Source: Crossaster papposus
Lineage: Eukaryota; Echinodermata; Asteroidea; Velatida; Solasteridae
Assembly: GCA_037893245.1 (NCBI GenBank)
Contig: JBAIAA010000025.1
Span: 2,542,001-2,606,000 of the forward strand
Direction: 5' to 3'
DNA length: 64,000 nt
Part shown: piece after piece, positions 1,013 to 38,058 of the stretch
How the letters are laid out: each line of letters starts with the position of its first letter
How positions within the stretch are numbered: the first letter of the stretch is position 1
Notes under the pieces: generated by a model
The model's database searches: none
What the model was told of the DNA's origin: nothing
Seen by the model: only the letters and a program-made list of their open reading frames with translations
Position numbers and translations under genes: made by a program

Positions 1013-1082
1013 ATGTTATCATTCCTGCGCGTTTACCCAAGCACTAAAGATGCGCAAATTTTAATGAAAGGTTTTGCCCTTG
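1013..1082 (+). pseudogene. pol: N-terminal fragment of the retrotransposon pol ORF, cut by the Polinton insertion
   Basis: An ATG at 1013 opens a frame that runs into the Polinton terminus. When the Polinton (1083-17353) and the second copy of the CCTTG duplication are mentally removed, this frame continues without a stop into the reverse transcriptase ORF on the right. It is therefore the true N-terminal end of pol. In the present DNA it would read only a few codons into the inverted repeat before stopping. Confidence 0.8.
1078..1082. repeat. Left target-site duplication CCTTG of Polinton 1
   Basis: CCTTG directly precedes the left inverted repeat and is repeated at 17354-17358, directly after the right inverted repeat. 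Polintons usually make 5-6 bp duplications. Here 5 bp match and the sixth differs. Confidence 0.9.
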
Positions 1083-1232
1083 AGTAGTATAGGTTATAGC
1101 GATCTTAGACCACACCCAATTTGTCTAACTTTTGTCACATATTTATGTGACAAAACCAAAAACCAAAACCAAAAACCAAAAACCAAAAACCAAAAACCAA
1201 AACCAAAACCAAAAGTCTTTAAGTATAAAATT
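1083..1232 (+). repeat. Left terminal inverted repeat of Polinton 1
   Basis: It matches the reverse complement of 17203-17353 with few differences. It has three parts: a ~47-bp unique end, a perfect 26-bp palindrome (1130-1155), and a run of CCAAAAA/CCAAAA units to about 1214 ending in a TCTTTAAGTATAAAATT tail. Elements replicated by protein-primed polymerase use their ends as origins, so these features may act in replication or integration. That role is inferred. Confidence 0.95.
1130..1155. repeat. Perfect 26-bp palindrome inside the Polinton end
   Basis: Two 12-base arms (TTTTGTCACATA and its complement) surround a 2-base centre. The same palindrome occurs in the right repeat at 17281-17306. 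It lies 47 bp from the element tip, a plausible recognition site for integrase or terminal protein. Confidence 0.9.
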
Positions 1233-1317
1233 CGAGTTACGCCTCACCTTATAAATTTCTGGTCTTACCTATAATAAAAATGAGATTTTTTTTTTTATAT
1301 ATATATTAAATAGAGAC
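1233..1317. promoter_or_regulatory. AT-rich leader before the polymerase gene
   Basis: A T-tract followed by alternating TATATATATATT lies about 10-25 bases before the polymerase ATG at 1318. It is the only obvious TATA-like sequence upstream of this gene. Confidence 0.4.
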
Positions 1318-4300
1318 ATGACGTTAGCGATAGGATACCACAAGTGGAATAAAGCTACGTTACGTGATTACGTTGAGACTAACAACCTCACAATCGATCA
1401 AACTGCGAAGTTGACTCGTAAAGTTTACATAGACGCGGTTAAAAAATACAACGCTCAATTTAAAAACTTAAATAAAAAGAGACACCACGATCTCAGACAA
1501 ATCGCCACCGAGCACGGTTTACGAGTCGTACCTACGGGTAAAAGAGGATATACGAATAAAGATTACATCGATGCGATCAAAGCGCATGTATCACCCGGAT
1601 CTTTTGAAGAAGCCGACTTTAGAGAAATTAGAAGATTTAGAAATCACTATAGAAACTTGTTACTCAAACCCAGGCTCTACAACAAAGATTTGATCAAGTT
1701 TTTTGACACTCGCAAATCAATGATCAAACAAAAAATCGAATCTGAATTGATAGGACTCAGAAGCTTAAAATTTCAGTTGGTGATCAAAGTCCAATATCAT
1801 AAAGATAAACCAGACGGAACGGAAGAAACGGTAAAAGTTAACCACACTACCAACCAGATAGCGTTGTTAAATAAATCTCAACTCCCTCAAATTTTAAGAG
1901 AACTAATCGGTGACTTGGAGAAAAAAGTAGACGAGTTTTTACAAAGGGGGTCGGGTTGGGTCTTTGACGAGATACTCGAGTTTTACATCAACATCAACCG
2001 ATACAATCCAGTTAGGGGTAGCTCTTACATAGATTTACCAAAATATCTCAAAGATAAAAAAGCGATCGTCAACGTAAAAAATAAAGACGACCAGTGTCTA
2101 AAGTGGTCGTTAAGAGCAGCCTTGGGTAAATATACCGACGACGTCAAAACTCGAATCGAAAGTAATCCCAATTATAAAATTCATAGAGAGAGACCGATTA
2201 TTTATACCACGGACGACGGACTAAATTTTACAAACGTAGACTTTCCAACTCCCCTCGATCATATATCGCGAGTAGAAACTCATAATAGTTTGTCGATAAA
2301 CGTGTTTGGTTACGAAGAGGATGCGGACGTGTTTCCTTTATACATCTCAGTACGCGAAGGAACACCGGTTGACTTATTGTTGTTTTCGAGAGACGATCAT
2401 TTTCACTATTGTTGGATAAAAGATTTTGATAAATTATGCAACCGGGTTACGAGATATCAAGGCAAGAAATATTTTTGTCGTCGGTGCTTGTGTCATTTTA
2501 ACTCTCAAGCTAGATTGGACAAACACGCAGTTGACTGTCGAGGTATAGACGCTAAATCTTCTAGAGTTGTATTTCCACAAAAAGGTAAACCCCTTATCGA
2601 TGACGATGGTAAACCCGTTGTCGATGAAAACGACGAAATCGTATTAGAAGAACCCATACTCAAATTTAAGAATTACAAACATAAACAAAAAGCGCCGTTT
2701 GTCATTTACGCGGACTTTGAATCTATATTAGAAAAAATACCCGCAACCGCAGAAACAAAGAACACTCGAAAAATTAACCGTCACGTAGCCAGCGGATACT
2801 CATACGCCGTGATAAGGTGCGATGGAAAGTGTATGAGTCAGAAAACATACAGAGGTATAGATGTCGCAACAAACTTTGTTAAGTCTTTACTCGACGAAAA
2901 GTTAAATGTAAATCTAATATTTGATAATCCAGAGCCAATGACGTTTACAGACGAGGACAAAATCAAATATAAAAACTCTAAAAAGTGTTGGATTTGCGAA
3001 AAAACTTTTTGGCTAAGCAAAAACGCGTGTCATTGCGGCGAAGAGTGTAAACCAAGCTCTTGCCCAATGTGTACAGACTGTAATAAGCCCGTCGACAATC
3101 GAAAAAGAAGCGTCAAGTATTGCGATTGTACGGAACGAGAAATAATCAAAAGAGAAGACGTGTGTTATTGCGAGGAAGAGTGTAAACCAAACTCTAGCGC
3201 AATGTGCTTAAATTGCAAAAAGCCAGCCAACAACGGAAGAAAAAGCGACGAGTTCTGTAAGTGCGGCGATCTTCAAGAAAGAAGAAAAAAAGGAGAGGTA
3301 TGCGTGGGGTGTTACAAAGAGTGTAACCCAATATCTCTCGAAATGTGCGCACGATGTAAAAAAACAACCAACGAGTACTGTAAATGTGGTGACAAAAGGA
3401 AAAAAAAAAAGGTCTGTACCAAGTGTAACAAAGAGATAAGTAATTTTAAAAGGGTCAGAGATCACTGCCACATCACGGGCGCATTTAGAGGTGCCGCGCA
3501 TGCTTATTGCAATCTAAATATGCAAGTTAAATCTGACCGCACTCCGATACCGGTCGTACTGCACAACTTGGAAAACTACGACGCTCACTTAATCATGCGG
3601 GCCGTGCCTGAGAGTGAAGATAAATTATTTGTTATCGCTAAAAATTCGGAAAAGTACGTGTCTTTTTCGTTAGGTCAACTGCGATTTATAGACTCGTTTC
3701 ATTTTATGGCAACGTCGTTGGAAAAATTAGTCAACGCATGTCCTAAAGACTCTTTTGGTTTACTAAGAAAACACTTCGGTTGTTCTGTTGCTAGGATGAG
3801 TGGCGTAGACTTATTGTTACAAAAAGGTGTTTATCCGTATGAGTACATAGACTCGTTTGACAAGTTTGAAGAGACCGACTTACCAAGCATCGACAAATTT
3901 TATAGCATTCTCAAAGACTCTAACGTATCGCAACAAGATTACTCTCGAGCTCAAAAAGTGTGGGCTGAATTTAATATTAAAAACTTGGGCGAGTACCACG
4001 ACTTATACGTGACCACGGATGTGTTTTTGTTAGCCTGCGTGTTTGAAAACTTTAGAGAAGTGTGTATCGACAACTATGGCTTAGACCCAGCGAATTATTT
4101 TACGGCACCGGGGCTGTCGTGGGACGCGTTGTTAAAACACTCGGGAGTTGAGCTCGAGTTGTTGACCGACGTGGACAAACACTTGTTTTTTGAGCGAGCT
4201 AAACGAGGTGGGGTATCTAGTGTAGGTGGTACGAGGTATCACCGATCCAACAATAAATATCTACCCGACCACAACACAGACGAACCCTCGAGTTACCTGT

Positions 4301-5583
4301 TGTATCTAGACGCCAACAATCTATATGGTTGGGCTATGAGTCAGCACCTACCTTACTCAAACTTTGAGTGGGTCTCACCAAAAACGTTTACCTCTGAAAA
4401 AATATCGTCGCTAAGAACAACGTCAAACACCGGATACTTTCTCGAAGTCGATTTAGACTACCCCGAACAGCTTCACGATCTACACGCTGATTATCCACTC
4501 GCGCCTGAAAACATAGAGATACCTAAAGAGTGGTTGTCAGATTATCAAAACGAGTTATTAAATACTGAACCCAGTTCTAACGTCAAAAAGCTGACGGGTA
4601 CTCTCTATCCAAAACAAAAATACGTTTTACATTACATAACGTTACAGTTGTATCTAAAACTAGGTTTAAAACTTACAAAGGTACACCGAGTGTTAAAGTT
4701 TGCGCAAACGCCTTGGATGAAATCTTACATAGACAAAAACACCCAACTCAGAACTCACGCAAAGTCGGACTTTGAAAAAGACTTGTTTAAACTGATGAAC
4801 AACAGCGTGTTTGGCAAGACGATGGAAAACGTACGAAACAGAATAGACGGGTACTTGCTCAGAGATGATAACGAAATCGATCAAAAAATGTACGAAAAAA
4901 TAGTCGGTAAACCCAGCTACAAAACGACCGTACCGTTTGAAGAATGTAAATTGTCTTTTGTAGAAAAATATAAAACGACGACTTTATTAAACAAACCTAT
5001 TTACTGCGGTGTAAGCATATTAGACTTAAGCAAAACGTTGATGTATGATTTTTATTACAACAACTTGAAACCAAAATATGACGATAATATTAGACTGATG
5101 TACACAGACACAGACAGTCTATTGTTGATAGTTTATGCAGACGACGTTTACGAAGATATGAAAAAAGACTCTGGCTCGTACGACCTGTCGAACTTTCCCA
5201 CCGACCACCCTTTATATGACCACGTCAACAAAAAGGTGATAGGTAAATTTAAAGACGAATTTGGCGGTAAACCGATTACCGAGGCTGTGTGTATCAGACC
5301 CAAGATGTACTCGATTTTAACCTCTGACTCGAATCTCAAAAAAGCAAAAGGGGTCACAAAGTTGGTCACTAGTAAATCGTTAAAACATCAACACTATCGA
5401 GATTGTGTGTTTAAAAACGAGTCGAGAATCGATAAGATGACGCGCATCGAATCAAAAAATCACGTCTTGCACACCATAACTCAAAACAAACTGTCGTTGA
5501 GCCCGTTAGACACAAAGCGGTATATACTCCCGAACGGTTCTACTACTCTAGCTTTTGGTCACTATATAATTAAAGACCTGTAA
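1318..5583 (+). CDS. polB: Protein-primed family B DNA polymerase of Polinton 1
   Basis: This 1421-residue protein would replicate the element from a terminal-protein primer. Visible motifs: ExoI D466-x-E468; a C2H2-like finger C387/C390/H403/C407; an endonuclease VII-like HCH motif at 715-718; an ExoII-like HNLENYD at 749-755; motif A with D998 (DANNLYG); motif B around 1158-1168 (KLMNNSVFGKT); motif C YTDTDS at 1262-1267. All polymerase catalytic residues are present. Residues ~557-703 are an unusual Cys-rich insertion made of about three tandem repeats, placed between the CxxC and HCH halves of the endonuclease VII-like zinc site. The second Polinton copy lacks most of this insertion. The gene ends 8 bp before the convergent integrase stop. 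Confidence 0.96.
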   Translation: MTLAIGYHKWNKATLRDYVETNNLTIDQTAKLTRKVYIDAVKKYNAQFKNLNKKRHHDLRQIATEHGLRVVPTGKRGYTNKDYIDAIKAHVSPGSFEEADFREIRRFRNHYRNLLLKPRLYNKDLIKFFDTRKSMIKQKIESELIGLRSLKFQLVIKVQYHKDKPDGTEETVKVNHTTNQIALLNKSQLPQILRELIGDLEKKVDEFLQRGSGWVFDEILEFYININRYNPVRGSSYIDLPKYLKDKKAIVNVKNKDDQCLKWSLRAALGKYTDDVKTRIESNPNYKIHRERPIIYTTDDGLNFTNVDFPTPLDHISRVETHNSLSINVFGYEEDADVFPLYISVREGTPVDLLLFSRDDHFHYCWIKDFDKLCNRVTRYQGKKYFCRRCLCHFNSQARLDKHAVDCRGIDAKSSRVVFPQKGKPLIDDDGKPVVDENDEIVLEEPILKFKNYKHKQKAPFVIYADFESILEKIPATAETKNTRKINRHVASGYSYAVIRCDGKCMSQKTYRGIDVATNFVKSLLDEKLNVNLIFDNPEPMTFTDEDKIKYKNSKKCWICEKTFWLSKNACHCGEECKPSSCPMCTDCNKPVDNRKRSVKYCDCTEREIIKREDVCYCEEECKPNSSAMCLNCKKPANNGRKSDEFCKCGDLQERRKKGEVCVGCYKECNPISLEMCARCKKTTNEYCKCGDKRKKKKVCTKCNKEISNFKRVRDHCHITGAFRGAAHAYCNLNMQVKSDRTPIPVVLHNLENYDAHLIMRAVPESEDKLFVIAKNSEKYVSFSLGQLRFIDSFHFMATSLEKLVNACPKDSFGLLRKHFGCSVARMSGVDLLLQKGVYPYEYIDSFDKFEETDLPSIDKFYSILKDSNVSQQDYSRAQKVWAEFNIKNLGEYHDLYVTTDVFLLACVFENFREVCIDNYGLDPANYFTAPGLSWDALLKHSGVELELLTDVDKHLFFERAKRGGVSSVGGTRYHRSNNKYLPDHNTDEPSSYLLYLDANNLYGWAMSQHLPYSNFEWVSPKTFTSEKISSLRTTSNTGYFLEVDLDYPEQLHDLHADYPLAPENIEIPKEWLSDYQNELLNTEPSSNVKKLTGTLYPKQKYVLHYITLQLYLKLGLKLTKVHRVLKFAQTPWMKSYIDKNTQLRTHAKSDFEKDLFKLMNNSVFGKTMENVRNRIDGYLLRDDNEIDQKMYEKIVGKPSYKTTVPFEECKLSFVEKYKTTTLLNKPIYCGVSILDLSKTLMYDFYYNNLKPKYDDNIRLMYTDTDSLLLIVYADDVYEDMKKDSGSYDLSNFPTDHPLYDHVNKKVIGKFKDEFGGKPITEAVCIRPKMYSILTSDSNLKKAKGVTKLVTSKSLKHQHYRDCVFKNESRIDKMTRIESKNHVLHTITQNKLSLSPLDTKRYILPNGSTTLAFGHYIIKDL

Positions 5584-5591
5584 GAAAAATC

Positions 5592-6587
5592 TTATTTAGG
5601 AGGTAACTCAGTGTCCGGAGGCACAACCTGAAGCTCTTGACTAACGAAACTTCGACGGGGACCTTTCTTGAGATAGTAAAGAGTGGGCTGGTTGTCTACT
5701 TTGATCGAGCGATCCAACCCAAAAACCTCGAGACTCCAAATAGGATCGGTCGCTCGCCTGCGTTCTCCTCCCTCTAACTCCCCGGGTGCGTAAAGATATC
5801 TATAAATATCGCCTTTTCTCACCAACTCTTTTTCTACCTCCGAGGGAGAAGAACTGATTTGACGAACTTGCGTTTCTTGCATCGCTAGCTTGGGAGTGAG
5901 TGGCTCGTAGTCTTCCGTCGTTATCAATCTGGTGGTTTCGTTGTTTAACGCCTTAATCACGTCGGGCAATCGTTTAACCCAGAGTCTACTCCTCTCCGTC
6001 GGATTAACAATCTCTGCAGCGTATTGATGGCCGAACAATCTCTCCGCCAAAGTCCTGTTAAATCTTTCGACCACTGCCTGCGCTCTGTGGTTACCCGGTT
6101 CTCCCACTTGTATCGTGACTTTTTTCTCCTCCAGTTGCTTTTTAAAAGCACCGTGAAATTCTTTACCCGCGTCTACTTTTAACAGCTTGGGCCAAGTCAA
6201 AGGTGACCTAGCGTAAACTCGAGCTAAAGCGTCGGCCACTTGGGTACTCGTCTTGTTGGTCAAAGGTTCGGCCTCTTTAAAACGCGTGGCTACGTCTACG
6301 ACCGTCATAGCGTACTTGTATTCTTTTTTACCGACTTTATCGTGAGGTAAAAATAACAAGTCTATCTGATGCATTTCGTTTGGCACAGCCATGGACTTGT
6401 TTAAACTCGTAGGCCTGCTTATATGCGTAGGAGGTGGTAAATAAATTTGCCACAACGCTTGTTTTCTTAACCAATTTCTGGTTTCTTCTTTGGACGCGCC
6501 CGTTTTTTTAGCTAATTTTACAACCGCACCTTCACCCTTCCAATAACCGGCGGGGCTGTAATACACTTTTTTAAACTTTGTTTCCAT
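5592..6587 (-). CDS. int: Retroviral-type (rve) DDE integrase of Polinton 1
   Basis: A 331-residue integrase that would insert linear element DNA and make the short target duplication. The catalytic triad is complete: D76 (HQID), D139 (VDAGKEF) and E174 (VVERFNR), with the 35-residue spacing between the last two that is usual for retroviral and Polinton integrases. An N-terminal helix-turn-helix-like region (residues ~20-50) precedes the core. The C-terminal ~60 residues resemble a small beta-barrel or chromo-like tail (LYYLKKG region). It is convergent with polB and lies 9 bp downstream of the next minus-strand ORF. Confidence 0.95.
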   Translation of the reverse strand: METKFKKVYYSPAGYWKGEGAVVKLAKKTGASKEETRNWLRKQALWQIYLPPPTHISRPTSLNKSMAVPNEMHQIDLLFLPHDKVGKKEYKYAMTVVDVATRFKEAEPLTNKTSTQVADALARVYARSPLTWPKLLKVDAGKEFHGAFKKQLEEKKVTIQVGEPGNHRAQAVVERFNRTLAERLFGHQYAAEIVNPTERSRLWVKRLPDVIKALNNETTRLITTEDYEPLTPKLAMQETQVRQISSSPSEVEKELVRKGDIYRYLYAPGELEGGERRRATDPIWSLEVFGLDRSIKVDNQPTLYYLKKGPRRSFVSQELQVVPPDTELPPK

Positions 6588-6596
6588 TTAACTTAA

Positions 6597-7026
6597 CTAA
6601 ACAAACTTATAAACTAAAAAACCTACCAACGCAGTTCCTCCCAAAACAAACACCAACTCGCCGGTCTTTTGATCTTCGCTAGGTGCGTAAAAATCAGCTA
6701 GAGTGGGCTCATGCTGCAGGCCCACGGGTACTTGTGCGTTTGAGCGAGTAACCGAGTTGTATTCTCTGAGAGCCTCGTCTATACTTTCAAAAGTCCTTTG
6801 AGCCTTTGCTTGTTTTTTGAGTCGATCGTTTAACCAATCGAGATACTTTGTCCTCGCTCTTTCCCCAATTGTTTTTTGCCGTTGCCAGTTTCTCTAAAGC
6901 CAAGTCGTGTCTCTTGCGCTCTTCGTCTTGTTTTTGTTGTTTCATGCTCGAAAATAAAAAGTTTGATCCCGCGAAAGCGAAAGCGTTAACTATTGCGCCT
7001 CCGATCATCATAGCGATGCTAGCCAT
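6597..7026 (-). pseudogene. Small two-membrane-segment Polinton protein with a 1-bp frame break
   Basis: The frame starts at 7026 (MASIAMMIGG, hydrophobic start), then a charged helix, and stays aligned with copy 2 for about 50 residues. The frame then changes at a GGGG run near 6863-6866. The homologous downstream part (LDWLNDRLKKQ, then a hydrophobic C-terminal segment GELVFVLGGTALVGF) continues in another frame to a stop at 6597-6599. A single extra G explains the break, and a homopolymer sequencing error is equally possible. The homologue at 62455-62823 reads through this point. The function is unknown; the layout suggests a virion or membrane protein. Confidence 0.65.
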
Positions 7027-7054
7027 ATTTTAGAAGAAGTAATATAAAAAATAC

Positions 7055-7062
7055 CTATAAAA
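7055..7062 (+). promoter_or_regulatory. TATA-like block touching the start codon of the 434-residue gene
   Basis: CTATAAAA runs directly into the ATG at 7063. Similar blocks sit at the same place before other genes of this element. Confidence 0.5.
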
Positions 7063-8367
7063 ATGGACTTAGATTTCAAGAGTCTAGAAGTAGTAGTTAA
7101 CTCGGTCGACCGCAGTTTTTTTATGGCTACTTTTCCAGATCTACTCGCCGACTATAAGTTACCCGTCGTTAAAACGGACGAGGTAATAAACAGATGGAAA
7201 ACACAACCGATGACGTTTTATCAAAATCAACTTAATTTTGCCATTTGGTGTAGTACCACCGGAGCCGGTTTAGGCTGGGATCTTATTAATTCTATCGATC
7301 CTCTGACGAGCGCCGTATACAGATTTCACGTTTATTTTACCGTTAGAAAAATATTAGAGTTTCTCAAATGTCCCAGCCCGAACGATAACGTATTTAATGC
7401 CGTAGACAACAACGTAGATCGCGGGGCTTATATCGACGCGTGTAGATTTTATTCTACGGATCCTAAAAATACTTGGATACAGACGGTAGATCTCTACTCG
7501 GGTGGATTGGGGCAGGCTTATGCTTGGGGTAAACCTTTGGGAGATTATGATACCACGGACTTGGGGATTAGTTACGGTAAATACGCGGGAGGAACTAAAA
7601 TGGGGTTTGGCCCCTCACAACCTCCAGGAGGATCTGGACGTTACAGCTCTCAAACGGTGACAAATTTGACGCAAGACGACGCCGTTGGCTCTGCGTGGAA
7701 ACGTTTTATAAACCCCGCCACTCACTTTACCGACGTCGGAATACAAAAAATAAACGAATCTATCAGGGCGTATGTTTACGCTCTGCTGGGAGCCCAGGCT
7801 CAAACAAAAACTAGTATTTTAACTCCGGGCACGGGTTTGGACGCCCAAACCCAGTTTGTTAATATCGTAGAAGGTTTGATTGCAACTCCGACCGATCTGG
7901 AAGAATCTATAACCCAATTTCAAGATTCGCTGCAATACGCCAGGAGTTCGTTAAACTTTGTGTTGGCAAAAGGATTATATCTCGTGCCTTCGAACATGCA
8001 ATTGAGGGTCGGAACCCACGAAGGATATAACAACAATATACAGATTGCGACCGCTGAGTTGGCGTTGGGATTAAACTCAAAGATAAACTCAAACGTACCC
8101 GCGCCTCTAACCGTTGACCCACCCGCGCCCACGCCCACGCCACCACCCACGCCCGCACCCTTCCCTCCCTCACCAACACCCACGCCCGCACCCACACCTC
8201 AAACTGTTGACCCACCCGCACCCACGCCAACACCAACGCCACCACCCGAGCCTTCTTTTCCCGAAGAAAACGTTCAGAGAGATCCTCACGAGTACGAAAA
8301 AACTTCGCTGATTGTCGGTACTTTAGCCATAGCGGGTATAGGATACCTGCTTTTAGACTTGTGGTAA
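7063..8367 (+). CDS. Conserved large Polinton structural/membrane protein (434 residues)
   Basis: This is a recognisable protein family found in many invertebrate Polintons, with conserved blocks FYQNQLNFA, LYSGGLGQAYAWG, IQKINESIRAYVYALLGAQAQT and LQYARS. Its role is not established; a virion structural role is inferred from its association with capsid genes. Residues ~345-400 are a Pro/Thr/Ala-rich linker of PTPTP-type repeats, and residues ~415-434 form a C-terminal transmembrane segment. The homologue in Polinton 2 starts about 50 residues further upstream with a heptad-like Lys/Gln/Glu segment that is absent here. The stop codon overlaps the start of a perfect hairpin. Confidence 0.8.
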   Translation: MDLDFKSLEVVVNSVDRSFFMATFPDLLADYKLPVVKTDEVINRWKTQPMTFYQNQLNFAIWCSTTGAGLGWDLINSIDPLTSAVYRFHVYFTVRKILEFLKCPSPNDNVFNAVDNNVDRGAYIDACRFYSTDPKNTWIQTVDLYSGGLGQAYAWGKPLGDYDTTDLGISYGKYAGGTKMGFGPSQPPGGSGRYSSQTVTNLTQDDAVGSAWKRFINPATHFTDVGIQKINESIRAYVYALLGAQAQTKTSILTPGTGLDAQTQFVNIVEGLIATPTDLEESITQFQDSLQYARSSLNFVLAKGLYLVPSNMQLRVGTHEGYNNNIQIATAELALGLNSKINSNVPAPLTVDPPAPTPTPPPTPAPFPPSPTPTPAPTPQTVDPPAPTPTPTPPPEPSFPEENVQRDPHEYEKTSLIVGTLAIAGIGYLLLDLW

Positions 8368-8407
8368 AAAAAAAAGCCTTCTATTTTGCTAGAAGGCTTT
8401 TTTTTTT
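8366..8407. terminator. Perfect hairpin with A10/T10 flanks between convergent genes
   Basis: The stem is A10-GCCTTCTA paired with TAGAAGGC-T10 around a 6-base loop (TTTTGC), giving an 18-bp perfect stem. It lies exactly between the 3' ends of a plus-strand and a minus-strand gene. It has the layout of a bidirectional factor-independent terminator, which is unexpected for DNA in an animal nucleus. Confidence 0.6.
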
Positions 8408-8435
8408 AGAGGCGCTTTTGTAAATAAACAAAAAT

Positions 8436-9617: not shown

Positions 9618-9626
9618 TTATATAAA
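9618..9626 (-). promoter_or_regulatory. TATATAA block touching the start of the 393-residue gene
   Basis: Read on the minus strand, TTATATAA leads directly into ATGGCTGAAG. It fits the shared start-proximal motif of the element. Confidence 0.5.
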
Positions 9627-9630
9627 CAAA

Positions 9631-9870
9631 TTAAAGTTTAGTAGAATTTAATATATTTGGTGGAAGTATATTTTGCGATACCAGCCAGGTTTTTACGTAC
9701 ATCGATCCGCTTATCATAGCCGTTAGTTTCGCTATATCTTCCAAGCTCAACTTGTCGAGATCGGCCGGTTTGATCTTCAAAAGTTTTTTACTAAACATGG
9801 TAAATCCCACGCTTAACATAGAGATGATAGCGGCGTGATAAAGATTGTTGACGATGCTATTAGTATCCAT
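9631..9870 (-). CDS. Small hydrophobic Polinton protein (79 residues)
   Basis: One or two membrane segments are visible (about residues 10-30 and 50-66), with a Lys-rich turn and a conserved-looking LSLEDIAKLTAMI block between them. The gene sits 13 bp upstream of the 393-residue gene on the same strand, within a run of minus-strand genes. I do not recognise a function. Small membrane proteins are common in Polintons. Confidence 0.65.
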   Translation of the reverse strand: MDTNSIVNNLYHAAIISMLSVGFTMFSKKLLKIKPADLDKLSLEDIAKLTAMISGSMYVKTWLVSQNILPPNILNSTKL

Positions 9871-9899
9871 TTATTAAAGCTTTATATTGTTTTTATTTT

Positions 9900-10271
9900 T
9901 TATTCCATTTCTACAAAATTTGAAGGTGTAGAAGAAGGAGTCTCTGGCTGAAGAGGGCTCTCTTGGGCTGGCTGAGGTAGAGGTTGCGGTGGTGCGGGGA
10001 TTTTTTGGCTCCATATATAGAGTCCTCCTAAAACTACAACAACCACCAGCGACGTCCAAAAGCATGTCCCAACTGCCGCGTACGAAGAAGGAGGAGTAGT
10101 ACTCACGTCTATATTTTGCATCTTGACAATTTGTTCTTTTCTCTTTTTGTTGTGTTCCGCTAATGCCTTGCCTTGTTTTACTCTACCGGGATTTTTAGTT
10201 TTAGTCGTCACCGTCTGTACTTTTGGGACTTTTGGAGTCTCTGGTTGAAGAGGGCTCTCTGGTTGACTCAT
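9900..10271 (-). CDS. Basic single-pass membrane protein with PLQPETP repeats (123 residues)
   Basis: A basic segment (NPGRVKQGKALAEHNKKRKE, residues 27-46) precedes one transmembrane helix at about 68-88. A PLQPETP motif occurs on both sides (residues 7-13 and 106-112). Basic LAEHNK-type segments recur in Polinton proteins and could contact DNA, but that is inference. Its first 71 bases overlap the end of the next upstream gene. CCTATAATAAAAG directly precedes the ATG. Confidence 0.65.
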   Translation of the reverse strand: MSQPESPLQPETPKVPKVQTVTTKTKNPGRVKQGKALAEHNKKRKEQIVKMQNIDVSTTPPSSYAAVGTCFWTSLVVVVVLGGLYIWSQKIPAPPQPLPQPAQESPLQPETPSSTPSNFVEME

Positions 10272-10857
10272 CTTTTATTATAGGTACACAATTATTTTTG
10301 TTAATAACTAAATGTTTAGATGTTATCAAGACACCTACTAACGGCGACAACCAAACGCCGTAGTTGTAATAAACTTCACAGAGTAGGCTGGCTATCGAGC
10401 TAGATATAACGGGATCTTCCTCTAGATCTTTGGTGAGTGTGTCTTCCGAGTCTACTCGTAGACTGACACCTAGGGGTTTGATCATAGGTAGACTCGCGCC
10501 TAAAACTCTCGAGTAAATCCCCAGCATGCAGTTACCCAAACTAGTAATCATTTCTTTACCTAGTCGAACCTCGTAATGGTTGTACATTTGTTCTTGTTTG
10601 TTCGCGTCTAGGTTTTCTATATCTCCCTGGCTAAATTCTTTACCCAAATACTTTTTAGAATCACCAGCTGATACTACGCCCAACAGTCTAGTTTTATGTT
10701 TTTCCGTTTGCGGCGCCGGTGTGCTCAAGTCTAAAGTAGACAGCTCCATTTTTATAAGACTATATAATTTATTTTTTAGAGCAAAATATTCGTAAGATAA
10801 AATACACAAGGTCGACGCTATAATAAATTTGAGCGAAAGATCGATCAGCACGAACAT
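10201..10857 (-). CDS. Polinton protein of unknown function (182 or 218 residues)
   Basis: Two starts are possible. The outer ATG (10857) adds a hydrophobic, membrane-like N-terminus of 36 residues. The inner ATG (10749) gives 182 residues starting MELSTLDLST and has TATAAAAA directly before it, matching the element's other gene starts. Both ATGs have an AT-rich block upstream. The body contains LLGVVSAGDSKKYLG and a hydrophobic stretch (VWLSPLVGVLI); the tail is hydrophilic and Ser/Asp-rich. I cannot assign a role. Placement among capsid and membrane genes suggests a late-type product. Confidence 0.6.
   Translation of the reverse strand: MFVLIDLSLKFIIASTLCILSYEYFALKNKLYSLIKMELSTLDLSTPAPQTEKHKTRLLGVVSAGDSKKYLGKEFSQGDIENLDANKQEQMYNHYEVRLGKEMITSLGNCMLGIYSRVLGASLPMIKPLGVSLRVDSEDTLTKDLEEDPVISSSIASLLCEVYYNYGVWLSPLVGVLITSKHLVINKNNCVPIIKDESTREPSSTRDSKSPKSTDGDD
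10272..10283 (-). promoter_or_regulatory. TATAATAAAAG block touching the start of the 123-residue gene
   Basis: On the minus strand CTATAATAAAAG is followed at once by ATGAGT. It lies inside the 3' end of the preceding gene. Confidence 0.45.
10750..10758 (-). promoter_or_regulatory. TATAAAAA block before the inner ATG at 10749
   Basis: On the minus strand TTATAAAA leads straight into ATGGAGCTG. This favours 10749 as a used start. Confidence 0.45.
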
Positions 10858-10872
10858 TTAATATAGCGAGAT

Positions 10873-11165
10873 AAACTAGTTGCAACTAGCTGTTCAACTA
10901 GCTGTTCAACTAGCTGTTCAACAAAACCCAACTAGTTGGCAAGTACTTATCAACTAGCTGTTCAACAAAACCTCAACAAAACCCAACTAGCTGGCAAGTA
11001 CTTATCAACTAGCTGTTCAACAAAACCTCAACAAAACCCAACTAGCTGTTCAACAAAACCTCAACAAAACCCAACTAGCTGTTCAACAAAACCTCAACAA
11101 AACCCCAACAAAACACAACTAGCTGTTCAACAAAACCTTAACAAACCGCAACTAGGTTACAACTA
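10873..11165. repeat. Intergenic tandem repeat CAACTAGCTGTTCAACAAAACC family
   Basis: A degenerate array built from CAACTAGCTGTT and CAACAAAACC modules, with a recurring unit near 35 bp and two copies of a variant containing GGCAAGTACTTAT. It fills the space between two minus-strand Polinton genes and contains AGCT/CTAG palindromes. No gene is visible. Confidence 0.85.
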
Positions 11166-11783
11166 GCTACTCAAGTACCATTTAGTCGGAGGATCCGTAT
11201 ATAAAATCAATTTACTATAGGGAGTGTCTTTGAGATATTGTTTTATGTCTTGTCTTTTATTATCCGGCACCACATCATTTTCGTCGAGGCAATTATCAAA
11301 ACTTTTTTTGTCTTTGCAATAAAAAATAGCCACCCATTGAGTCTGTTCGCGATAATCTTTTAAAACGGTGTTATATTTTTGAGTCAATAACCAACAGCTG
11401 TGGTTATCATGTCTACCGCTAAAGGCTAATTTAGATAACATGCACACACTACTACCGCCTCTAGAACCCTTTCGATATTTCATAGCTTGATAAGCGCTGC
11501 AGTCGTCGATTAAAAACAAAGTGTGCAATCCTTTAAATTTCGTTCTGTAAAAGTCTATGGCTTCGTTCATGCTCATATTTTCGACGTCGGGGTCGCACGC
11601 GTAAACGTTGGGGTCGTTAAAAAACCAAGGTCTCTCGTGATACGTTTTGTTGTTTGACAGAGTCGGACATATGATCACCAAGTATTCAAATTTGTTGGCA
11701 TATTCGTTTTCTAGCAAGTCTAACGCAAACTTTGTTTTACCAGAGTTTGTTCTTCCACATATTAAAGCGCAGTGCGGCGTCAT
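11163..11783 (-). CDS. A32/FtsK-HerA-like genome packaging ATPase
   Basis: A 206-residue P-loop ATPase with Walker A GRTNSGKT at 10-17, Walker B TLFLIDD ending at D92-D93, a candidate arginine-finger region SGRHDNHS at 121-128 and a sensor-like LLTQKY at 131-136. These features match the small packaging ATPases of Polintons, virophages and large DNA viruses, which drive genome entry into the capsid. It lies next to the major capsid gene on the same strand, as expected for a packaging module. Two TATATAAAAAA blocks precede the start. Confidence 0.92.
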   Translation of the reverse strand: MTPHCALICGRTNSGKTKFALDLLENEYANKFEYLVIICPTLSNNKTYHERPWFFNDPNVYACDPDVENMSMNEAIDFYRTKFKGLHTLFLIDDCSAYQAMKYRKGSRGGSSVCMLSKLAFSGRHDNHSCWLLTQKYNTVLKDYREQTQWVAIFYCKDKKSFDNCLDENDVVPDNKRQDIKQYLKDTPYSKLILYTDPPTKWYLSS

Positions 11784-11796
11784 CTTTTTTATATAG
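11784..11796 (-). promoter_or_regulatory. Tandem TATATAAAAAA blocks before the ATPase gene
   Basis: Read on the minus strand, CTATATAAAAAAG abuts the ATG at 11783. A second CTATATAAAAAAA copy lies about 18 bp upstream. Confidence 0.55.
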
Positions 11797-11823
11797 ACTA
11801 GTTTTTTTATATAGGCGAGTTTT

Positions 11824-13092
11824 TTAAAAGTTGACGCTGCTCAAGCGACCTCCTTGGATGTTAAGTTGTGCGTCCATAACCAAAAATACATAACACTTTA
11901 GAGCGCCCGCGGTTTGAGCTTCGCGTTCCATCAATATAGAGATTCCTCCGCTTATATCGCCGATTTGTTTACCCGATCCGTGATTTTTGTTGTCGTCCGT
12001 CGATCTCATATCCAACCAAAGTCCGTATCTTCTTAAAAAATAATCACCGATATCCATTCCCGTTAACCCTAAATCTTTACATATACCAGCCCCTAGCTCG
12101 GTGGATGAGTCTCCAAAGAACTTGTTGATTTCTTCCCATTGTTGATAGCTCTTGAGACCTGAACTGTAGAGTTGATTAGGTTTTCCTTCTATCGTCACGC
12201 TAACTTTGTCTATCTTTGGGTTATAAAATAGTTCAGGGGTTTTTGTAGTCGCTTCTTTAAACAAAAACAGTATACCCTTGAGGCTTTTAACCGCCACGTT
12301 TAAATTAAAGTTCCAAACGGTGTCCGATTTATCGATAGATCTTACTTCGTGTCTCTGAATCCTTTCAAACAAAAACTGCGTCTTGTCGAGACATTTTTGA
12401 GCTAAGATTTGAGCCAAGTGCTTGTTGGCAACGATCTCATATTCTAGTGCCAAGTTAGAGATGCTATAACTCGCTGCGGCGTCGGTAGAATTTACGACTT
12501 TGGAGTAGTCGTTAAAAGTAAGTTCGTAAGACAGTTGGTCGTTCAGAGCGGATGGATAAAACGGTTGATGATCTGTGAGCATTTCAAAGTCTAGCGGTAT
12601 ACAAAATCTGTTTCCAAGGGCATCCGCTATCGCTTTGTCTTTCCCACTGTTGTCACCGGCAACCGCGTTACCGGTACCCACACGCAGGCTCGATATGTTG
12701 GCAATCTCGTTTCCGGTGTAGTGATCTCTGATACCTTTGGGCAACCAAAGATCTTTAAAAATGTTATAAACGTCGGCGTCGGTCAAGTTTACGATCTCCC
12801 GGCCACCGATACATATTCTTATTTGTTTTACGAGATTTCGTCCTAGATTTTTAAACAGACTTCGATTGGCGTCGTCGTCCGAGGTTAGATCGATATTAAA
12901 AGCTAGTTTTGCCGAACCGGGGACGATCACGTCGTCGGAGCTCAACGACGGAAACTTGACTATTAATTTGTCGTTCGCGTCGATCGTGCTAGGATTGTGA
13001 GTTACGACGACAGTCTGGCGGTTGCCTTTTATACCCCGAGGATTTTTAAGGCGTCTGTGTGGATTTAGTTTGTTTCCATAAGTCGCGTTCAT
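11824..13092 (-). CDS. Major capsid protein, double jelly-roll type (candidate)
   Basis: 422 residues. The protein is beta-rich, with the block FKNLGRNLVKQIRICIGGREIV (split here as FKNLGRNLV and KQIRICIGG) and DADVYNIFKDLWLP, which resembles Polinton major capsid proteins. Later blocks (YELTFNDYSKV, NLALEYEIV) suit a second jelly-roll. It would form the hexon-like capsid units. It is divergent from the penton-like genes with only 38 bp between starts and lies 40 bp upstream of the ATPase gene. The identification rests on recalled family resemblance and neighbours, not on a search. Confidence 0.8.
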   Translation of the reverse strand: MNATYGNKLNPHRRLKNPRGIKGNRQTVVVTHNPSTIDANDKLIVKFPSLSSDDVIVPGSAKLAFNIDLTSDDDANRSLFKNLGRNLVKQIRICIGGREIVNLTDADVYNIFKDLWLPKGIRDHYTGNEIANISSLRVGTGNAVAGDNSGKDKAIADALGNRFCIPLDFEMLTDHQPFYPSALNDQLSYELTFNDYSKVVNSTDAAASYSISNLALEYEIVANKHLAQILAQKCLDKTQFLFERIQRHEVRSIDKSDTVWNFNLNVAVKSLKGILFLFKEATTKTPELFYNPKIDKVSVTIEGKPNQLYSSGLKSYQQWEEINKFFGDSSTELGAGICKDLGLTGMDIGDYFLRRYGLWLDMRSTDDNKNHGSGKQIGDISGGISILMEREAQTAGALKCYVFLVMDAQLNIQGGRLSSVNF

Positions 13093-13101
13093 TTTTTATA
13101 G
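13093..13101 (-). promoter_or_regulatory. CTATAAAAA block touching the major capsid start
   Basis: On the minus strand CTATAAAAA is followed directly by ATGAACGCG. The 38-bp divergent space must serve both capsid genes. Confidence 0.55.
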
Positions 13102-13130
13102 TAACGTTTTATTATTTTATTTTTTAAAAA

Positions 13131-13838
13131 ATGCAGTCGCATACATTTGTCATGACCAAAAAAGAGCAGACTTTTGAGCTACCTCGGCCCATAGATAACG
13201 TCGGGGGTGACCGTCGCATTAAGTTAAGCAGCGTTATTTTAGACGTGGGTTTTTATAACTTCGAGAAAACAGAGATAATACGATATTATATATCTACTCA
13301 GTCTAGCTACAAAGCAGGTCCGGTCTATATCACACCCGGTCGATGGAATCTTTATTCTTTCATGGATAGTTTTAAAAAAGATATTAAATCTGTGGCCATC
13401 ACTCCGATAAACGATAAACTATTTTATTTGTTTTTGGTGTCCTCTGATGCTGATGTAACTATAAGACTATCGAGTAATCTAACTAAACTTTTAGGTTTAC
13501 CCAGGGTTCTGGTCATAGGAAAAAATTTAACTAAATCTTATTTTGGAAAATTTAACATAAATCTTTACAACGCGGCTTTTTTGCATTGTGAAGAACTGTC
13601 TACGCATTCAAATTTTTTAAACGGAAAGCAAACTAACCTGTTGGGGAGTATACCTTTATCGGGCGATGCAGCTCGTTCAAACAATCCCCAAGATCCAATT
13701 TACGTCAAATACAACAATTCTCCAAAAGAGTTAGTAGCCGATAAAATAAACAGCCTCACGTTTTCGTTAAAAAACGGTCTTGGTGAGGTGTTAGATAACA
13801 GAGGTAAAGAGATAATTTTAAACGTAAAAATATTTTAG
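13131..13838 (+). CDS. Minor capsid (penton-like, single jelly-roll) protein, copy 1
   Basis: A 235-residue protein with the pattern of Polinton minor capsid proteins: an N-terminal block PIDNVGGDRRIKL, then PGRWNLYSF, a LSSNLTKLLGLP block, FNINLYNAAFLHCEEL, and a C-terminal ...FSLKNGLGEVLDNRGKEI strand. Such proteins cap capsid vertices. It is followed 13 bp later by a close paralogue of identical length. The variable region lies at about residues 45-110, while the ends are almost identical. Confidence is fair for the family and high for the gene. Confidence 0.78.
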   Translation: MQSHTFVMTKKEQTFELPRPIDNVGGDRRIKLSSVILDVGFYNFEKTEIIRYYISTQSSYKAGPVYITPGRWNLYSFMDSFKKDIKSVAITPINDKLFYLFLVSSDADVTIRLSSNLTKLLGLPRVLVIGKNLTKSYFGKFNINLYNAAFLHCEELSTHSNFLNGKQTNLLGSIPLSGDAARSNNPQDPIYVKYNNSPKELVADKINSLTFSLKNGLGEVLDNRGKEIILNVKIF

Positions 13839-13851
13839 TTACTTTTGTAAA

Positions 13852-14559
13852 ATGCAGTCTCATACATTTGTCATGACGGATAACGAGCAGACCTTTGAAT
13901 TATCGCGACCTATAGATAACGTCGGGGGTGACCGTCGCATGAAGTTAAACAACTTTGCGTTAGACTTGGGTTTTTATAACCTCGAAAAAAAAGCGCCGAT
14001 AAATTGGGAGAGTTTTACGGGTGATATCGCTGATCTTACGTCTATTCAAATTGTCGATCAGGAAAAAATTGATATTCCTCCCGATAGGTGGAATCTTCAT
14101 TCTTTCAAAGATCTTATAAAAACTTTTCACGGTATATCTATAGAGTCTTTATCCGATGAACTGTTTTATCTATCCATTCCCGACCAAAATCGCATAAAAC
14201 TATCGAGTAATTTGTCTAAACTTTTAGGTTTACCCAGGGGTTGGCTCAATGGTGGTAATCATTATGGAAAATTTAGCTTAAATCTTTACAACGCCGTCTT
14301 TTTACATTGTGAAGAACTGTCTACGCATTCAAATTTTGTTGGTGGAAAACAAACTAACCTGTTGGAGAGTATACCCATACACGGTGATGCCGCCCGTTCA
14401 AACAATCCCCAAGATCCAATTTATATCAACTATAACAAGTGTTCGAAAGAGTTGGTAGCTGGCAAAATAAACAGCTTCACGTTTTCGTTAAAAAACGGTC
14501 TTGGTGAGGTGTTAGATAACAGAGGTAAAGAGATAATTTTTAACGTAGAAATATTTTAG
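13852..14559 (+). CDS. Minor capsid (penton-like) protein, tandem copy 2
   Basis: Same length (235 residues) and architecture as the preceding gene, with identical PIDNVGGDRR and LKNGLGEVLDNRGKEI blocks. The 13-bp spacer TTACTTTTGTAAA occurs after both copies, so the duplicated unit was gene plus downstream spacer. The diverged middle (about residues 45-110) contrasts with the conserved flanks. This suggests either selection for different surface loops or gene conversion of the ends. Both copies are intact, so both may be expressed. Confidence 0.78.
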   Translation: MQSHTFVMTDNEQTFELSRPIDNVGGDRRMKLNNFALDLGFYNLEKKAPINWESFTGDIADLTSIQIVDQEKIDIPPDRWNLHSFKDLIKTFHGISIESLSDELFYLSIPDQNRIKLSSNLSKLLGLPRGWLNGGNHYGKFSLNLYNAVFLHCEELSTHSNFVGGKQTNLLESIPIHGDAARSNNPQDPIYINYNKCSKELVAGKINSFTFSLKNGLGEVLDNRGKEIIFNVEIF

Positions 14560-14572
14560 TTACTTTTGTAAA

Positions 14573-15199
14573 ATGACGACTAGTATTTATCCTGATCTAA
14601 AAAGTACCATCGAAGATGGTGCTAGTACGAGGGTGTTTCGATTGCAAAAGATCGAAGAAGTTCAAAAAGATATATTGGCGCAACGAGAACAGCGAAGCGC
14701 GTTGTGTAAAAAATATGGTAAGTTAATTACGACATTATCTACTACAGAAACCCTAGCCGAGATGAGTGGAGCAATTTGTGGGGGTTTGGGAATCGCAGCT
14801 ATAAGCGGCGTCATTACGTCACCCGTTGGTTTTGCGTTAGAGGGAGTAGCCTTGAGTTTTGGTTGCGCAGCGCTCTTGCTAAAATATTTTAGCAAACGAT
14901 TTAGACGTAAAGCTAAAAAACACGACGAGATTAGAGTCTTGGCCGAGGCTAAGCTCAACAGCGTAAGAGATCTTATTTCTCAAGCTTTAGAGGATGGCGA
15001 TATATCCCACGAAGAGTACGCTTTGGTGTTAAAGGAACTGAGGCAATTTAACGATATGAAAGAGGCTATCAGGTCCGGCAGCTTGCTGTCAGAAAAGAAA
15101 GGTGAGAGCGATATGGAATCCGAGATAAAAAGACGCGTGGAAGAGTTGGTTTTGAAGGAAAAAAAAGGAATTATCGAAAAACTTACAGCTTCACAATAA
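14573..15199 (+). CDS. Conserved Polinton protein with membrane hairpin and charged helical tail (208 residues)
   Basis: Residues ~65-106 form a glycine-rich hydrophobic hairpin (AICGGLGIAAISGV, then ALSFGCAALLLKYF), followed by a basic KRFRRKAKKHDEI patch and a helical region (LAEAKLNSVRDLISQALEDGDISHEEYALVLKEL, cited in parts: LAEAKLNSVRDL, DGDISHEEY). This hairpin-plus-helix layout is common among predicted proteins of invertebrate Polintons. The role is unknown. It is co-oriented with the two penton-like genes at 13-bp spacing, so it may be co-transcribed with them. Confidence 0.72.
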   Translation: MTTSIYPDLKSTIEDGASTRVFRLQKIEEVQKDILAQREQRSALCKKYGKLITTLSTTETLAEMSGAICGGLGIAAISGVITSPVGFALEGVALSFGCAALLLKYFSKRFRRKAKKHDEIRVLAEAKLNSVRDLISQALEDGDISHEEYALVLKELRQFNDMKEAIRSGSLLSEKKGESDMESEIKRRVEELVLKEKKGIIEKLTASQ

Positions 15200-15214
15200 A
15201 TACAATTTATTTCG

Positions 15215-16090
15215 ATCAACCTCCTCCTTATCCATCAGCTCCGCCTTTTTGTGCCAAACGCGATGACATTTGAAACCCCCAAAAACTTACAGCTTAAACC
15301 GACAAAAAACAACCTTTGGTTAGCGTGGCTAGCTAACAGACAAAACAAAAAACTAATTGCATTTCAGACAAAAAAACAACCTTTGATCAGCGCGGCTAGC
15401 TAATTGCATTTCATATCTTATCTTGTTACAGACAAAACAAACAACCTTTTGTCAGCGTGGCTCTCAAACAAAAAACTAATTGCATTTCATATCCTGTTAC
15501 TGTCAAAACAAACAACCTTTGGTTGGTGTTGCTCTCAACCAGGAGAATTTATACAAACAAACCCATCGCCCTTCACAGGCAAAACAAACAACCTTTGGAC
15601 AGCGTGGCCAGTAATTTTCCATACAGCCACACTGAGAAGTGGTGGTTTTGTATAAATACTGCAGCATTAGCCGTTTCATCACACTAGCTTGTACAGCGTG
15701 AGTCAAGCCAAAACAGCCTTTTTATCATTTCTGCACTAGTTCGTACAGCGTGAGCTAGATCGAGCTAAAACAGTTTTTGTATAAGACAGCGAGCCAGGCC
15801 CCGTGTGTTTTACTTTTAACCCAGAACTCAGCTACTAAAAAAGGTAAGAGAATATAATTGTTTTGTTTACGTGAGTAGCTCAAAAGAATAATTGCTATGA
15901 TATTAAAACTGTACTCTACAAATTTATCACAGATCGTCTCACTCACTACCATCTCTCCTCTATCACAGACGTTAGAAAAACAACTGGCGGATTATATTTG
16001 AAAGGTGAGAATATAAATGTTTAAATATGTATTCTTCTAATGTTGTTTACGTGAGTAGCTCATATTAAAACTCTATCTATTCTTGTATTT
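15215..16090. repeat. Non-coding Polinton spacer with degenerate repeats
   Basis: About 15,290-15,640 repeats a unit built from GACAAAACAAACAACCTTTGG and TCAGCGTGGCTAGC and CTAATTGCATTTCA. At 15,680-15,780 a GTACAGCGTGAG unit occurs twice. GTTTACGTGAGTAGCTCA occurs at ~15,866 and ~16,043. No ORF of note is present. These may be regulatory or replication repeats. Confidence 0.75.
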
Positions 16091-16107
16091 TTATTTGCTT
16101 TAGTATC

Positions 16108-16896
16108 ATGACGTTTCCAAGGCAAGTCCTCAAACTCGCTTATATGAGGGAAGACGTCGATGAAGCCAATCGCCTCATCGACACAAGCGGCGAGTGGGTG
16201 GTGCACCAATTTCACCAATACCACCAACTAGTCGCTGAGGCAAAAAGACTCATCACCGACGGTCGGCATGAAGAAGCCTTGGAGGCCCTAAACAACACAC
16301 CGAATATAAATAACTTTAGTCCGCCACCACTCCCTACTTTAGAAGTCCAAGAAAATGATGAAGAAGTAGAAGAACAGCCCAAAATAAAGAAAAATGCCCC
16401 GACTCCCGAAGAAATGTACAACAAACTAAAAAATACTTATAATATGCCACGACAGTTACGTAATTGGGAAGATATTCCTTTACCAGGTAATGAACGACAC
16501 AATTTAAGGGATTTAGAACAACGCGTAAAAGAATTCGGTGGAAAGTATAAAGAGGGGGAAAACAGGGGTTTGTTTAGCGCGGCAAATTTTGGGAACTGGT
16601 TAGAAATTTCATTTCAAACATTTCGGCGAGATAAAAAAAAGGGCGAGGTATTTTTACCAAATTTTGATACATGGTTAGAACAAAATTGTGACATAAGAAA
16701 ACATTGGGCTAAAATATTGAGGGAATTTCACAAACTGGTAAAAGAATATCCCCAATTACTTAACTGTCGTCTACCCTTAACTTTTTTCAGAAAAAATAAG
16801 AGATTAATTAAGACGTATTTTAGTATCACTCCAGCATTAGGCGAAAGATGGAAACACCATAAAGATTGTATTTGTAATCACTGTGGACCTGTGTAA
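16108..16896 (+). CDS. Unrecognised Polinton cargo protein (262 residues)
   Basis: An intact ORF near the right end, in the position where Polintons carry variable genes. The N-terminal ~60 residues are helical and His/Gln-rich (HQFHQYHQL). A Pro/Glu-rich hinge follows (~72-100). The C-terminal two-thirds repeat two similar blocks, FGNWLEISFQTFRRDKK and FDTWLEQNCDIRKHW, then LREFHKLVKEYPQLL. The last residues CICNHCG could bind metal. The WLE and FHKL pattern vaguely suggests a small DNA-binding or phage-type domain, but I cannot name a family. It is separated from the capsid genes by 900 bp of repeats. Confidence 0.7.
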   Translation: MTFPRQVLKLAYMREDVDEANRLIDTSGEWVVHQFHQYHQLVAEAKRLITDGRHEEALEALNNTPNINNFSPPPLPTLEVQENDEEVEEQPKIKKNAPTPEEMYNKLKNTYNMPRQLRNWEDIPLPGNERHNLRDLEQRVKEFGGKYKEGENRGLFSAANFGNWLEISFQTFRRDKKKGEVFLPNFDTWLEQNCDIRKHWAKILREFHKLVKEYPQLLNCRLPLTFFRKNKRLIKTYFSITPALGERWKHHKDCICNHCGPV

Positions 16897-16901
16897 TTTT
16901 A

Positions 16902-17030
16902 GACATGACATCATTTGTAAAAAAGTCTATTTTGAGAGAAGGAGACTGCCAGTCTCCTTTTCTAAATATAGACATGACATCATTCATTTATAACAAAGTC
17001 TATTTTGAGAGAAGGAGACTGCCAGTAAAA
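16902..17030. repeat. Tandem duplication of a ~68-bp subterminal unit
   Basis: A unit starting GACATGACATCATT and ending GAGAAGGAGACTGCCAGT occurs twice (about 16,904-16,953 and 16,971-17,026). The first copy is followed by CTCC, making a GGAGACTGCCAGTCTCC hairpin. Confidence 0.8.
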
Positions 17031-17112
17031 AACCTAAAGGGCACTGGCAGATTTTTAGAAGTTAATTTTAGTTATATTATTAAAACTGTAATCAATGAAA
17101 ATAAAATAAAAT

Positions 17113-17139
17113 AGCGCCCTCTGTTGATGGCGCTTTTTT
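17113..17139 (+). terminator. AGCGCC hairpin followed by a T-run
   Basis: AGCGCC (17113-17118) pairs with GGCGCT (17129-17134) across a 10-base loop and is followed by T6. It lies downstream of the 262-residue gene and just inside the right inverted repeat. AGAGGGCGCT recurs inverted at about 17186-17195. Confidence 0.4.
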
Positions 17140-17202
17140 AAAATTAATTTTAGTTTGTCATTTATTGTTTTTTTATTTAACCCATAGAGGGCGCTGAAAA
17201 TT

Positions 17203-17353
17203 AATTTTATACTTAAAGACTTTTGGTTTTGGTTTTGGTTTTGGGTTTTTGGTTTTTGGTTTTTGGTTTTTGGTTTTTGGTTTTGTCACATAAATATGTG
17301 ACAAAAGTTAGACAAATTGGGTGTGGTCTAAGATCGCTATAACCTATACTACT
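17203..17353 (-). repeat. Right terminal inverted repeat of Polinton 1
   Basis: Reverse complement of the left repeat. It contains the same palindrome (17281-17306) and a TTTTTGG/TTTTGG run (about 17221-17284). One repeat unit differs in length from the left copy, which explains the 1-bp difference in total length. Confidence 0.95.
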
Positions 17354-17358
17354 CCTTG
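17354..17358. repeat. Right target-site duplication CCTTG of Polinton 1
   Basis: Second copy of the 5-bp target duplication. The retrotransposon pol frame resumes at 17359 in phase with the left fragment. Confidence 0.9.
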
Positions 17359-21103: not shown

Positions 21104-21189
21104 GCTTACAACAATAAACGGCTGCTCGGCCACACGCAACAAAACAAATATATTCGAGTGCTCGATTCTGTATGTCCGGTCTTGTCACA

Positions 21190-37995: not shown

Positions 37996-38058
37996 TCGTC
38001 CCGGCATGCTTGACCTTCTATTCGATCGCACGATCACATACACTCATCTACTCCAATC

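Follow-up and report, generated by a model that had tools for sequence, protein, structure and literature searches.

Polintons, or Mavericks, are described in passages of PMC10045372 as characteristically flanked by a 6-bp target-site duplication, a length that excerpts of PMC8097293 also give for intact vertebrate Mavericks, and parts of PMC8547959 and PMC12220804 state a range of 5–6 bp. Ngaro retrotransposons carry split direct repeats in the order A1-ORFs-B1A2B2 (ORF, open reading frame), as outlined in a section of PMC8547959. Nested elements of related kinds are on record: the same section places Ngaro elements within endogenous mavirus-like elements of Cafeteria burkhardae, with duplications of mostly 3–5 bp, and part of PMC12220804 reports that polinton-like viruses of cryptophytes harbor inserted retrotransposons. 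Here we analyze a stretch of 64,000 nucleotides from Crossaster papposus (the window; positions 2542001–2606000 of contig C25 in a genome of 1.02 Gb and 1841 contigs, which are given C-numbers throughout), in which a Polinton lies inside the pol gene of a Ngaro element. Related kinds of element are thus nested as in Cafeteria burkhardae, although in another host and in the reverse order, since there the retrotransposon enters the virophage. The comparison with cryptophytes is similar, in that one mobile element disables another in both cases, but again with the order reversed. In the portions of the literature drawn upon here we noticed no published case of a Ngaro that harbors a Polinton, and we do not claim that none is in print.

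The Polinton occupies window positions 1083–17353 (16,271 bp) and is bracketed by two copies of CCTTG, at 1078–1082 and 17354–17358 on the forward strand. Its ends read AGTAGT...ACTACT and belong to terminal inverted repeats (TIRs) at 1083–1232 (forward strand, AGTAGT terminus) and 17203–17353 (reverse strand, ACTACT terminus). An earlier note on this DNA had described matching inverted repeats of about 150 bp, and our alignment agrees, with 149 of its 151 columns matching and the other two taken up by a mismatch and a gap. Both differences sit in a CCAAAAA tract, and CCAAAAA-type tandem arrays are present within both TIRs (1152–1214 and 17221–17284). Among the combinations tried of starts from 1080 to 1087 with ends from 17349 to 17359, only 1083/17353 gave a duplication of at least 5 bp, and of three edge solutions only this one, with CCTTG, has symmetrical ends. 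The note's assertion that the edges are exact to the base therefore stands as regards CCTTG on both sides, although its span of 1078–17358 takes in both copies of the duplication and the element proper is 1083–17353.

The interrupted gene begins with an ATG at 1013, a start methionine shared by the relatives P0001, P0003, P0004 and P0011, and is broken after 70 bp (1013–1082, forward strand), so that the join follows residue 23.3. The rest of pol resumes at 17359–18815 on the same strand and encodes reverse transcriptase (RT) and RNase H (Pfam RVT_1, 7e-14; RNase H only weakly, at 0.022 and 0.042, below cut-off). Because the insertion splits a GFxxGF motif close to the beginning of the gene, the full-length protein cannot be read from this copy. 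Removal of the element together with one CCTTG joins the flanks in an open pol frame and restores GFxxGF with exact spacing. To assess this join we used 120 listed RT relatives of the 2726 passing the threshold, found with the right-hand part of pol only and hence independent of the join. Of these, 117 matched the joined N-terminus and 104 spanned the join; GFxxGF is invariant in all 104, and four of these alignments contain gaps. A motif restored at exact spacing and invariant in every spanning relative argues that the join is not due to chance. Thus, the note's proposals that a Polinton had inserted in a retrotransposon pol gene, and that excising it with one CCTTG rejoins the gene without a stop, are both borne out, the former by the TIRs, the CCTTG pair, the RVT_1 match and the integrase, ATPase and capsid genes described below.

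Uninterrupted copies of the same retrotransposon, for which the note had suggested searching the genome, are present. A 600-bp probe made of both flanks joined drew 183 genomic candidates, of which 40 were scored, and 38 places besides the window's own match align across the join. We aligned 11 of the 38 (10 fetched together, and C286), the other 27 lying outside the comparison. All 11 are free of insertions and deletions in the interval that begins 43 nt left of the join and ends 9 nt to its right. The target site reads CCTTG in three (C607, C60 and C1080) and CTTTG in eight, and C607 and C60 reproduce the 26 nt around the join letter for letter. In the part of each copy that was read, the pol frame is free of stops in six copies (C723, C13, C1374, C607, C649 and C286) and contains a stop in five (C60, C585, C7, C1080 and C729). 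The join is therefore the ancestral state in length in all 11 copies read, and the note's prediction of an empty site is upheld. An intact copy in which the sequence differs at this point had been named in advance as evidence to the contrary; the length is the same throughout, with a single substitution in the eight CTTTG copies, and we do not count these as a refutation because both copies of the duplication in the window read CCTTG and because copies with CCTTG exist. C286 was considered as an allelic empty site, since it matched at 100% over 429 bp, but its flank differs beyond the Ngaro 5′ end and it carries one substitution in the site, and it is thus a separate copy.

The gene content also identifies the inserted element as a Polinton/Maverick, because in addition to the TIRs with AGTAGT ends it carries a retroviral-type (rve) integrase, an A32-type ATPase and a capsid protein. 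The integrase (331 aa, 5592–6587, reverse strand) matches Pfam rve at 1e-9, above cut-off, and has 3593 relatives at E <= 0.001; none were found among the viral contigs scanned with it. The packaging ATPase (225 aa, 11163–11840, reverse strand) matches Pfam Pox_A32 at 1.1e-5, above cut-off, and a PHROG terminase large subunit at 3e-7. The major capsid protein (423 aa, 11824–13095, reverse strand) was recognized from an AlphaFold2 model (pLDDT 82, pTM 0.85) for which Foldseek, with BFVD, returned the capsids of PBCV-1 and of the iridovirus SGIV at E of about 1e-15 and the mavirus major capsid protein at 1.9e-10. The fold is thus of the type found in nucleocytoplasmic large DNA viruses and mavirus, and we take these matched proteins to be double jelly-rolls. 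The longest ORF (1442 aa, 1255–5583, forward strand) is read as a protein-primed DNA polymerase B on the basis of DANNLYGWAM, LMNNSVFGKTMENVRNR and YTDTDS, which we presume to be polymerase B motifs. The remaining ORFs are of 439 aa (7048–8367, forward), 393 aa (8436–9617, reverse), 218 aa (10201–10857, reverse), 216 aa (14549–15199, forward, with no Pfam match) and 275 aa (16069–16896, forward), together with an apparent tandem pair of 236 aa (13128–13838, forward) and 243 aa (13828–14559, forward), similar to each other by eye and without family matches above cut-off. The integrase, the ATPase, the double jelly-roll-type capsid gene and the length of about 16 kb are all as in known Polintons, and the ends correspond to the (AGT)2//(ACT)2 motif given for vertebrate Mavericks in part of PMC8097293. 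In contrast, the usual duplication of this family is 5 bp rather than 6, the putative polymerase lacks a Pfam match and a protease gene was not recognized.

The duplication length can be examined across the family. When the genome was probed with the TIR, 40 of 47 candidates were scored and yielded 66 matches spread over 23 contigs. Both ends are readable in 18 contig copies, which represent 15 distinct sites, after merging C362 with C697 and C2 with C1212, plus one rearranged copy in C635. Second ends were sought and not found for C533, C238, C125, C130 and C864, which were left out of the site counts, and that of C487 was found. With the ends fixed at AGTAGT...ACTACT, the duplication is 5 bp at 14 of the 15 sites (CCTTG, TGATA, CAGCG, CTATG, CGTCA, CCATG, CTCTT, ATATC, CCTTC, ACATT, AATAG, GTTTT, TCAGT and ATAAT) and 6 bp at one (CACCAG, C697). 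The integrase gene of the C697 copy is 98.8% identical to that of the window, so this exception is not due to a different integrase. All 15 sites fall within the 5–6 bp range stated in the relevant parts of PMC8547959 and PMC12220804, but the 6-bp duplication specified for intact vertebrate-type Mavericks in the available text of PMC8097293 is lacking at 14 of the 15 sites, and we keep the element out of that group. The note had placed the window's duplication at the low end for Polintons; 5 bp is correct, but it is the norm of this family and not an outlier. The copy in C635 (104759–120700) has the left flank of C1212/C2, another right flank and no duplication; it is a rearranged or recombined copy and was excluded from the counts. 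At each end of the copies in C605, C1212, C635, C2 and C487, roughly the outermost 60 bp occur as a tandem duplication. A weak symmetrical site preference (C first, A/T in the center, G last) was seen post hoc across the first 13 five-bp sites.

The order of events is clear: the Ngaro was there first and the Polinton came second, because the uninterrupted copies show the join as the ancestral state, which agrees with the relative date given in the earlier note. The window's Ngaro differs from the copy in C723 by 16 mismatches in 1520 columns, none in 221 and 16 in 3627, or 32 in 5,368 with gaps set aside (~0.6%); with gaps counted, identity is 98.3–98.8% in the two long pieces. Since the host copy is itself young, the Polinton probably also arrived recently. 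Moreover, the integrase genes of 10 other Polinton copies retain 96–99% nucleotide identity to that of the window. We consider it close to certain that this Polinton family has been active recently in the genome and that one member entered the pol gene of a resident Ngaro by integrase joining with a 5-bp stagger. Under this scenario, the rve integrase would have inserted the element in pol by attaching its AGTAGT...ACTACT termini to the two target strands at cuts staggered by 5 bp, and repair of the stagger would have left CCTTG on each side. Retroviral-type integrases make staggered target cuts, and it is on this biochemistry that the Polinton's own integrase is the presumed agent of the cut.

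Several observations weigh against this reading. Most of the uninterrupted copies, including those most similar to the window, read CTTTG at the target site. No allelic empty site was found; of the 774 candidates drawn by the left-boundary probe 40 were scored, and among these C25 alone spans the boundary. The 1442-aa ORF matched no Pfam profile, and no relative in the PDB was found by sequence. Pfam likewise gave no adenovirus-like cysteine protease among the ORFs scanned. The integrase genes of C52 and C437 each contain one stop, and in C630 the integrase alignment covers 310 of 331 aa, so part of the family is decaying. Finally, eight of the 14 five-bp sites would also fit a 6-bp duplication with one of the two ends moved over by a base.

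It is natural to ask whether the landing in a Ngaro was due to chance. Retrotransposon coding sequence is interrupted at four of the 15 sites, two of which are Ngaro (C25 and C697/C362) and two of which appear to be LINE-type (C409 and C64; LINE, long interspersed nuclear element). The two Ngaro sites are the only ones found when 125 Ngaro proteins (120 relatives and five of the window) were compared by tblastn with 40 flanks, representing both sides of 17 copies and one side of six. The second is a Polinton at C697:937459–953820 and C362:1260845–1277206, in a degraded Ngaro; the 2-kb left flanks are identical, and the pair represents haplotigs or a segmental duplication. The C409 target is presumably a LINE-type RT, cut right after YADDIQLYI, and two right-flank ORFs there gave no Pfam match. 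That of C64 is a LINE ORF1-like frame with zf-CCHC at 0.0017 followed by an ORF with Exo_endo_phos at 0.0012, both below cut-off, and the C263 target is an ORF without a family name. When 150-nt flanks are joined, the frame is open across the join at C409, C64 and C263, although in the C409 frame a stop lies some way before the join. More such targets may have been missed, because the Pfam scan covered nine flank ORFs. Among the other neighbors, a piggyBac-type transposase lies about 0.9 kb off at C52, and THAP-domain ORFs lie near the C412 and C1212 sites.

One could propose from these targets that the family prefers retrotransposon coding sequence, and Ngaro above all. If Ngaro makes up ~0.1% of the genome, as follows from about 5.4 kb for each of the 183 first-look candidates, then a second Ngaro among the other 14 sites would have a chance of roughly 1%, but the Ngaro and LINE counts are lower bounds, and the apparent excess in retrotransposon ORFs was noted post hoc among 15 sites. 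Furthermore, insertions into host exons are lost by selection whereas those into transposons are not, the second Ngaro target is a degraded derivative of the same Ngaro, in which pol carries a deletion and insertions resembling minisatellites occur, and the LINE assignments at C409 and C64 face the absent and sub-threshold Pfam matches given above. We therefore regard a true preference as unlikely, and the excess as a lead and not a proven preference. Ordinary integrase insertion into available DNA accounts for the mechanism.

A second possibility, that the duplication was originally the canonical 6 bp and that one copy has since lost a base in its C or G run, is very improbable. It would accord with the length in print for Polintons and intact vertebrate Mavericks, and the join would look no different had a single C or G dropped out of the duplication. 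For the same reason, the absence of an extra base from the 11 uninterrupted copies does not by itself decide the matter, as such a loss inside the duplication would look alike. What speaks against the proposal is the recurrence of 5 bp with symmetrical ends at 14 of 15 family sites, on which we reject it. Six of these (C25, C263, C64, C52, C437 and C605) offer no 6-bp solution even after a one-base shift. The other eight do so only with asymmetric ends, and by our own arithmetic about six of 14 would be expected by chance. An assembly chimera, in which a Polinton contig was misjoined into the Ngaro, is hardly credible even though both elements are repetitive in this genome, because a misjoin would yield neither a perfect duplication nor symmetrical TIR edges on both sides, the same signature recurs at 14 other sites, and the one copy without a duplication (C635) does show a non-canonical junction.

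The host element had been described in the earlier note as Ngaro/DIRS, and only the first of these names can be kept. DIRS1-like elements are distinguished by inverted terminal repeats and an internal complementary region. The sister copy in C723 instead has direct repeats A1 (90–328), B1 (from 4658), A2 (5433–5671) and B2 (5935–6501) in the Ngaro order A1-ORFs-B1-A2-B2, where the end of B1 was taken as 5432, at the start of A2, and B2 is cut off at 6501, where the sequence retrieved for this copy stops. These 6.5 kb contain no inverted self-match at E <= 1e-3. The split direct repeats and the lack of inverted self-matches rule out DIRS1 and make the host a Ngaro. In C723, 263 bp at 5672–5934 separate A2 from B2 and match neither repeat nor the window's Ngaro copy.

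The window's copy spans about −435, where alignment with other copies places its 5′ end, to 21200. Its ORFs, all on the forward strand, are as in other Ngaro elements: a gag-like ORF (1–1011, beginning upstream of the window), pol, a tyrosine recombinase region in pieces (18701–19720; Pfam Phage_integrase 1.2e-5 on 19340–19717, at 25.6 bits just under the curated cut-off of 27.1) and an SGNH/GDSL hydrolase ORF (19777–20343; Lipase_GDSL_2 2.3e-7, at 31.9 bits just under the curated cut-off of 32.9). An SGNH hydrolase ORF occurs in some Ngaros. C723 has an intact recombinase ORF of 259 aa at the corresponding place. The B1 repeat (20397–21200, forward strand) was located by alignment with C723, and searching for split repeats in the window's copy alone gained nothing. 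This copy terminates at the point that corresponds to the A2 start of C723, so it is without A2 and B2 and consists of A1-ORFs-B1 only; such an end might reflect integration of a circular intermediate. The copy also lacks 30 bp inside RT (at about 17576). In the 10 fetched copies these are complete in seven, reduced to 29 bp in C585 and affected by deletions in C1080 and C729, and the C286 stretch ends short of this position. The spacer between A2 and B2 in C723, and in the window's copy the missing repeats, the broken recombinase, the RT deletion and the Polinton itself, are departures from the usual Ngaro plan.

Other repeats are found in and around the window. A satellite-rich block flanks the Ngaro on both sides (−1915 to −443 and 24563–26000, 96.6% identical) and ends beside it in telomere-like TAACCC repeats; a probe across this end drew 774 genomic candidates. 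A very abundant repeat at 38469–40000 has 3168 first-look candidates, of which the scored ones are 94–99% identical, and it made 38000–40000 unusable as a probe for haplotigs. At 52355–53413 an 11-bp unit is repeated about 96 times, nearly perfectly, as a satellite in which all six reading frames are open. At 58049–64000, and continuing beyond the window, lies another Polinton, decayed and from a different family, with pieces of polymerase, integrase and the ORF at 7048 that retain 43–83% amino acid identity in shifting frames.

The nesting of a Polinton in a Ngaro is well supported and fairly ordinary, save for its 5-bp footprint and a possible leaning toward retrotransposon ORFs. A lineage with a 5-bp-staggering integrase that tended to land in such ORFs, and in Ngaro above all, would be a natural inactivator of retrotransposons and the mirror image of Ngaro insertion into virophages, but we consider this scenario somewhat more doubtful still than the preference it builds upon. 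What the locus does provide is a clean relative date, as a Ngaro copy only ~0.6% (substitutions) away from an uninterrupted relative predates the Polinton, with an empty site known to the base, and hence an example of a virus-like family that has moved recently in a eukaryotic genome. Moreover, the family-wide 5-bp duplication can be set beside 6-bp Polintons to ask which property of the integrase determines the spacing.

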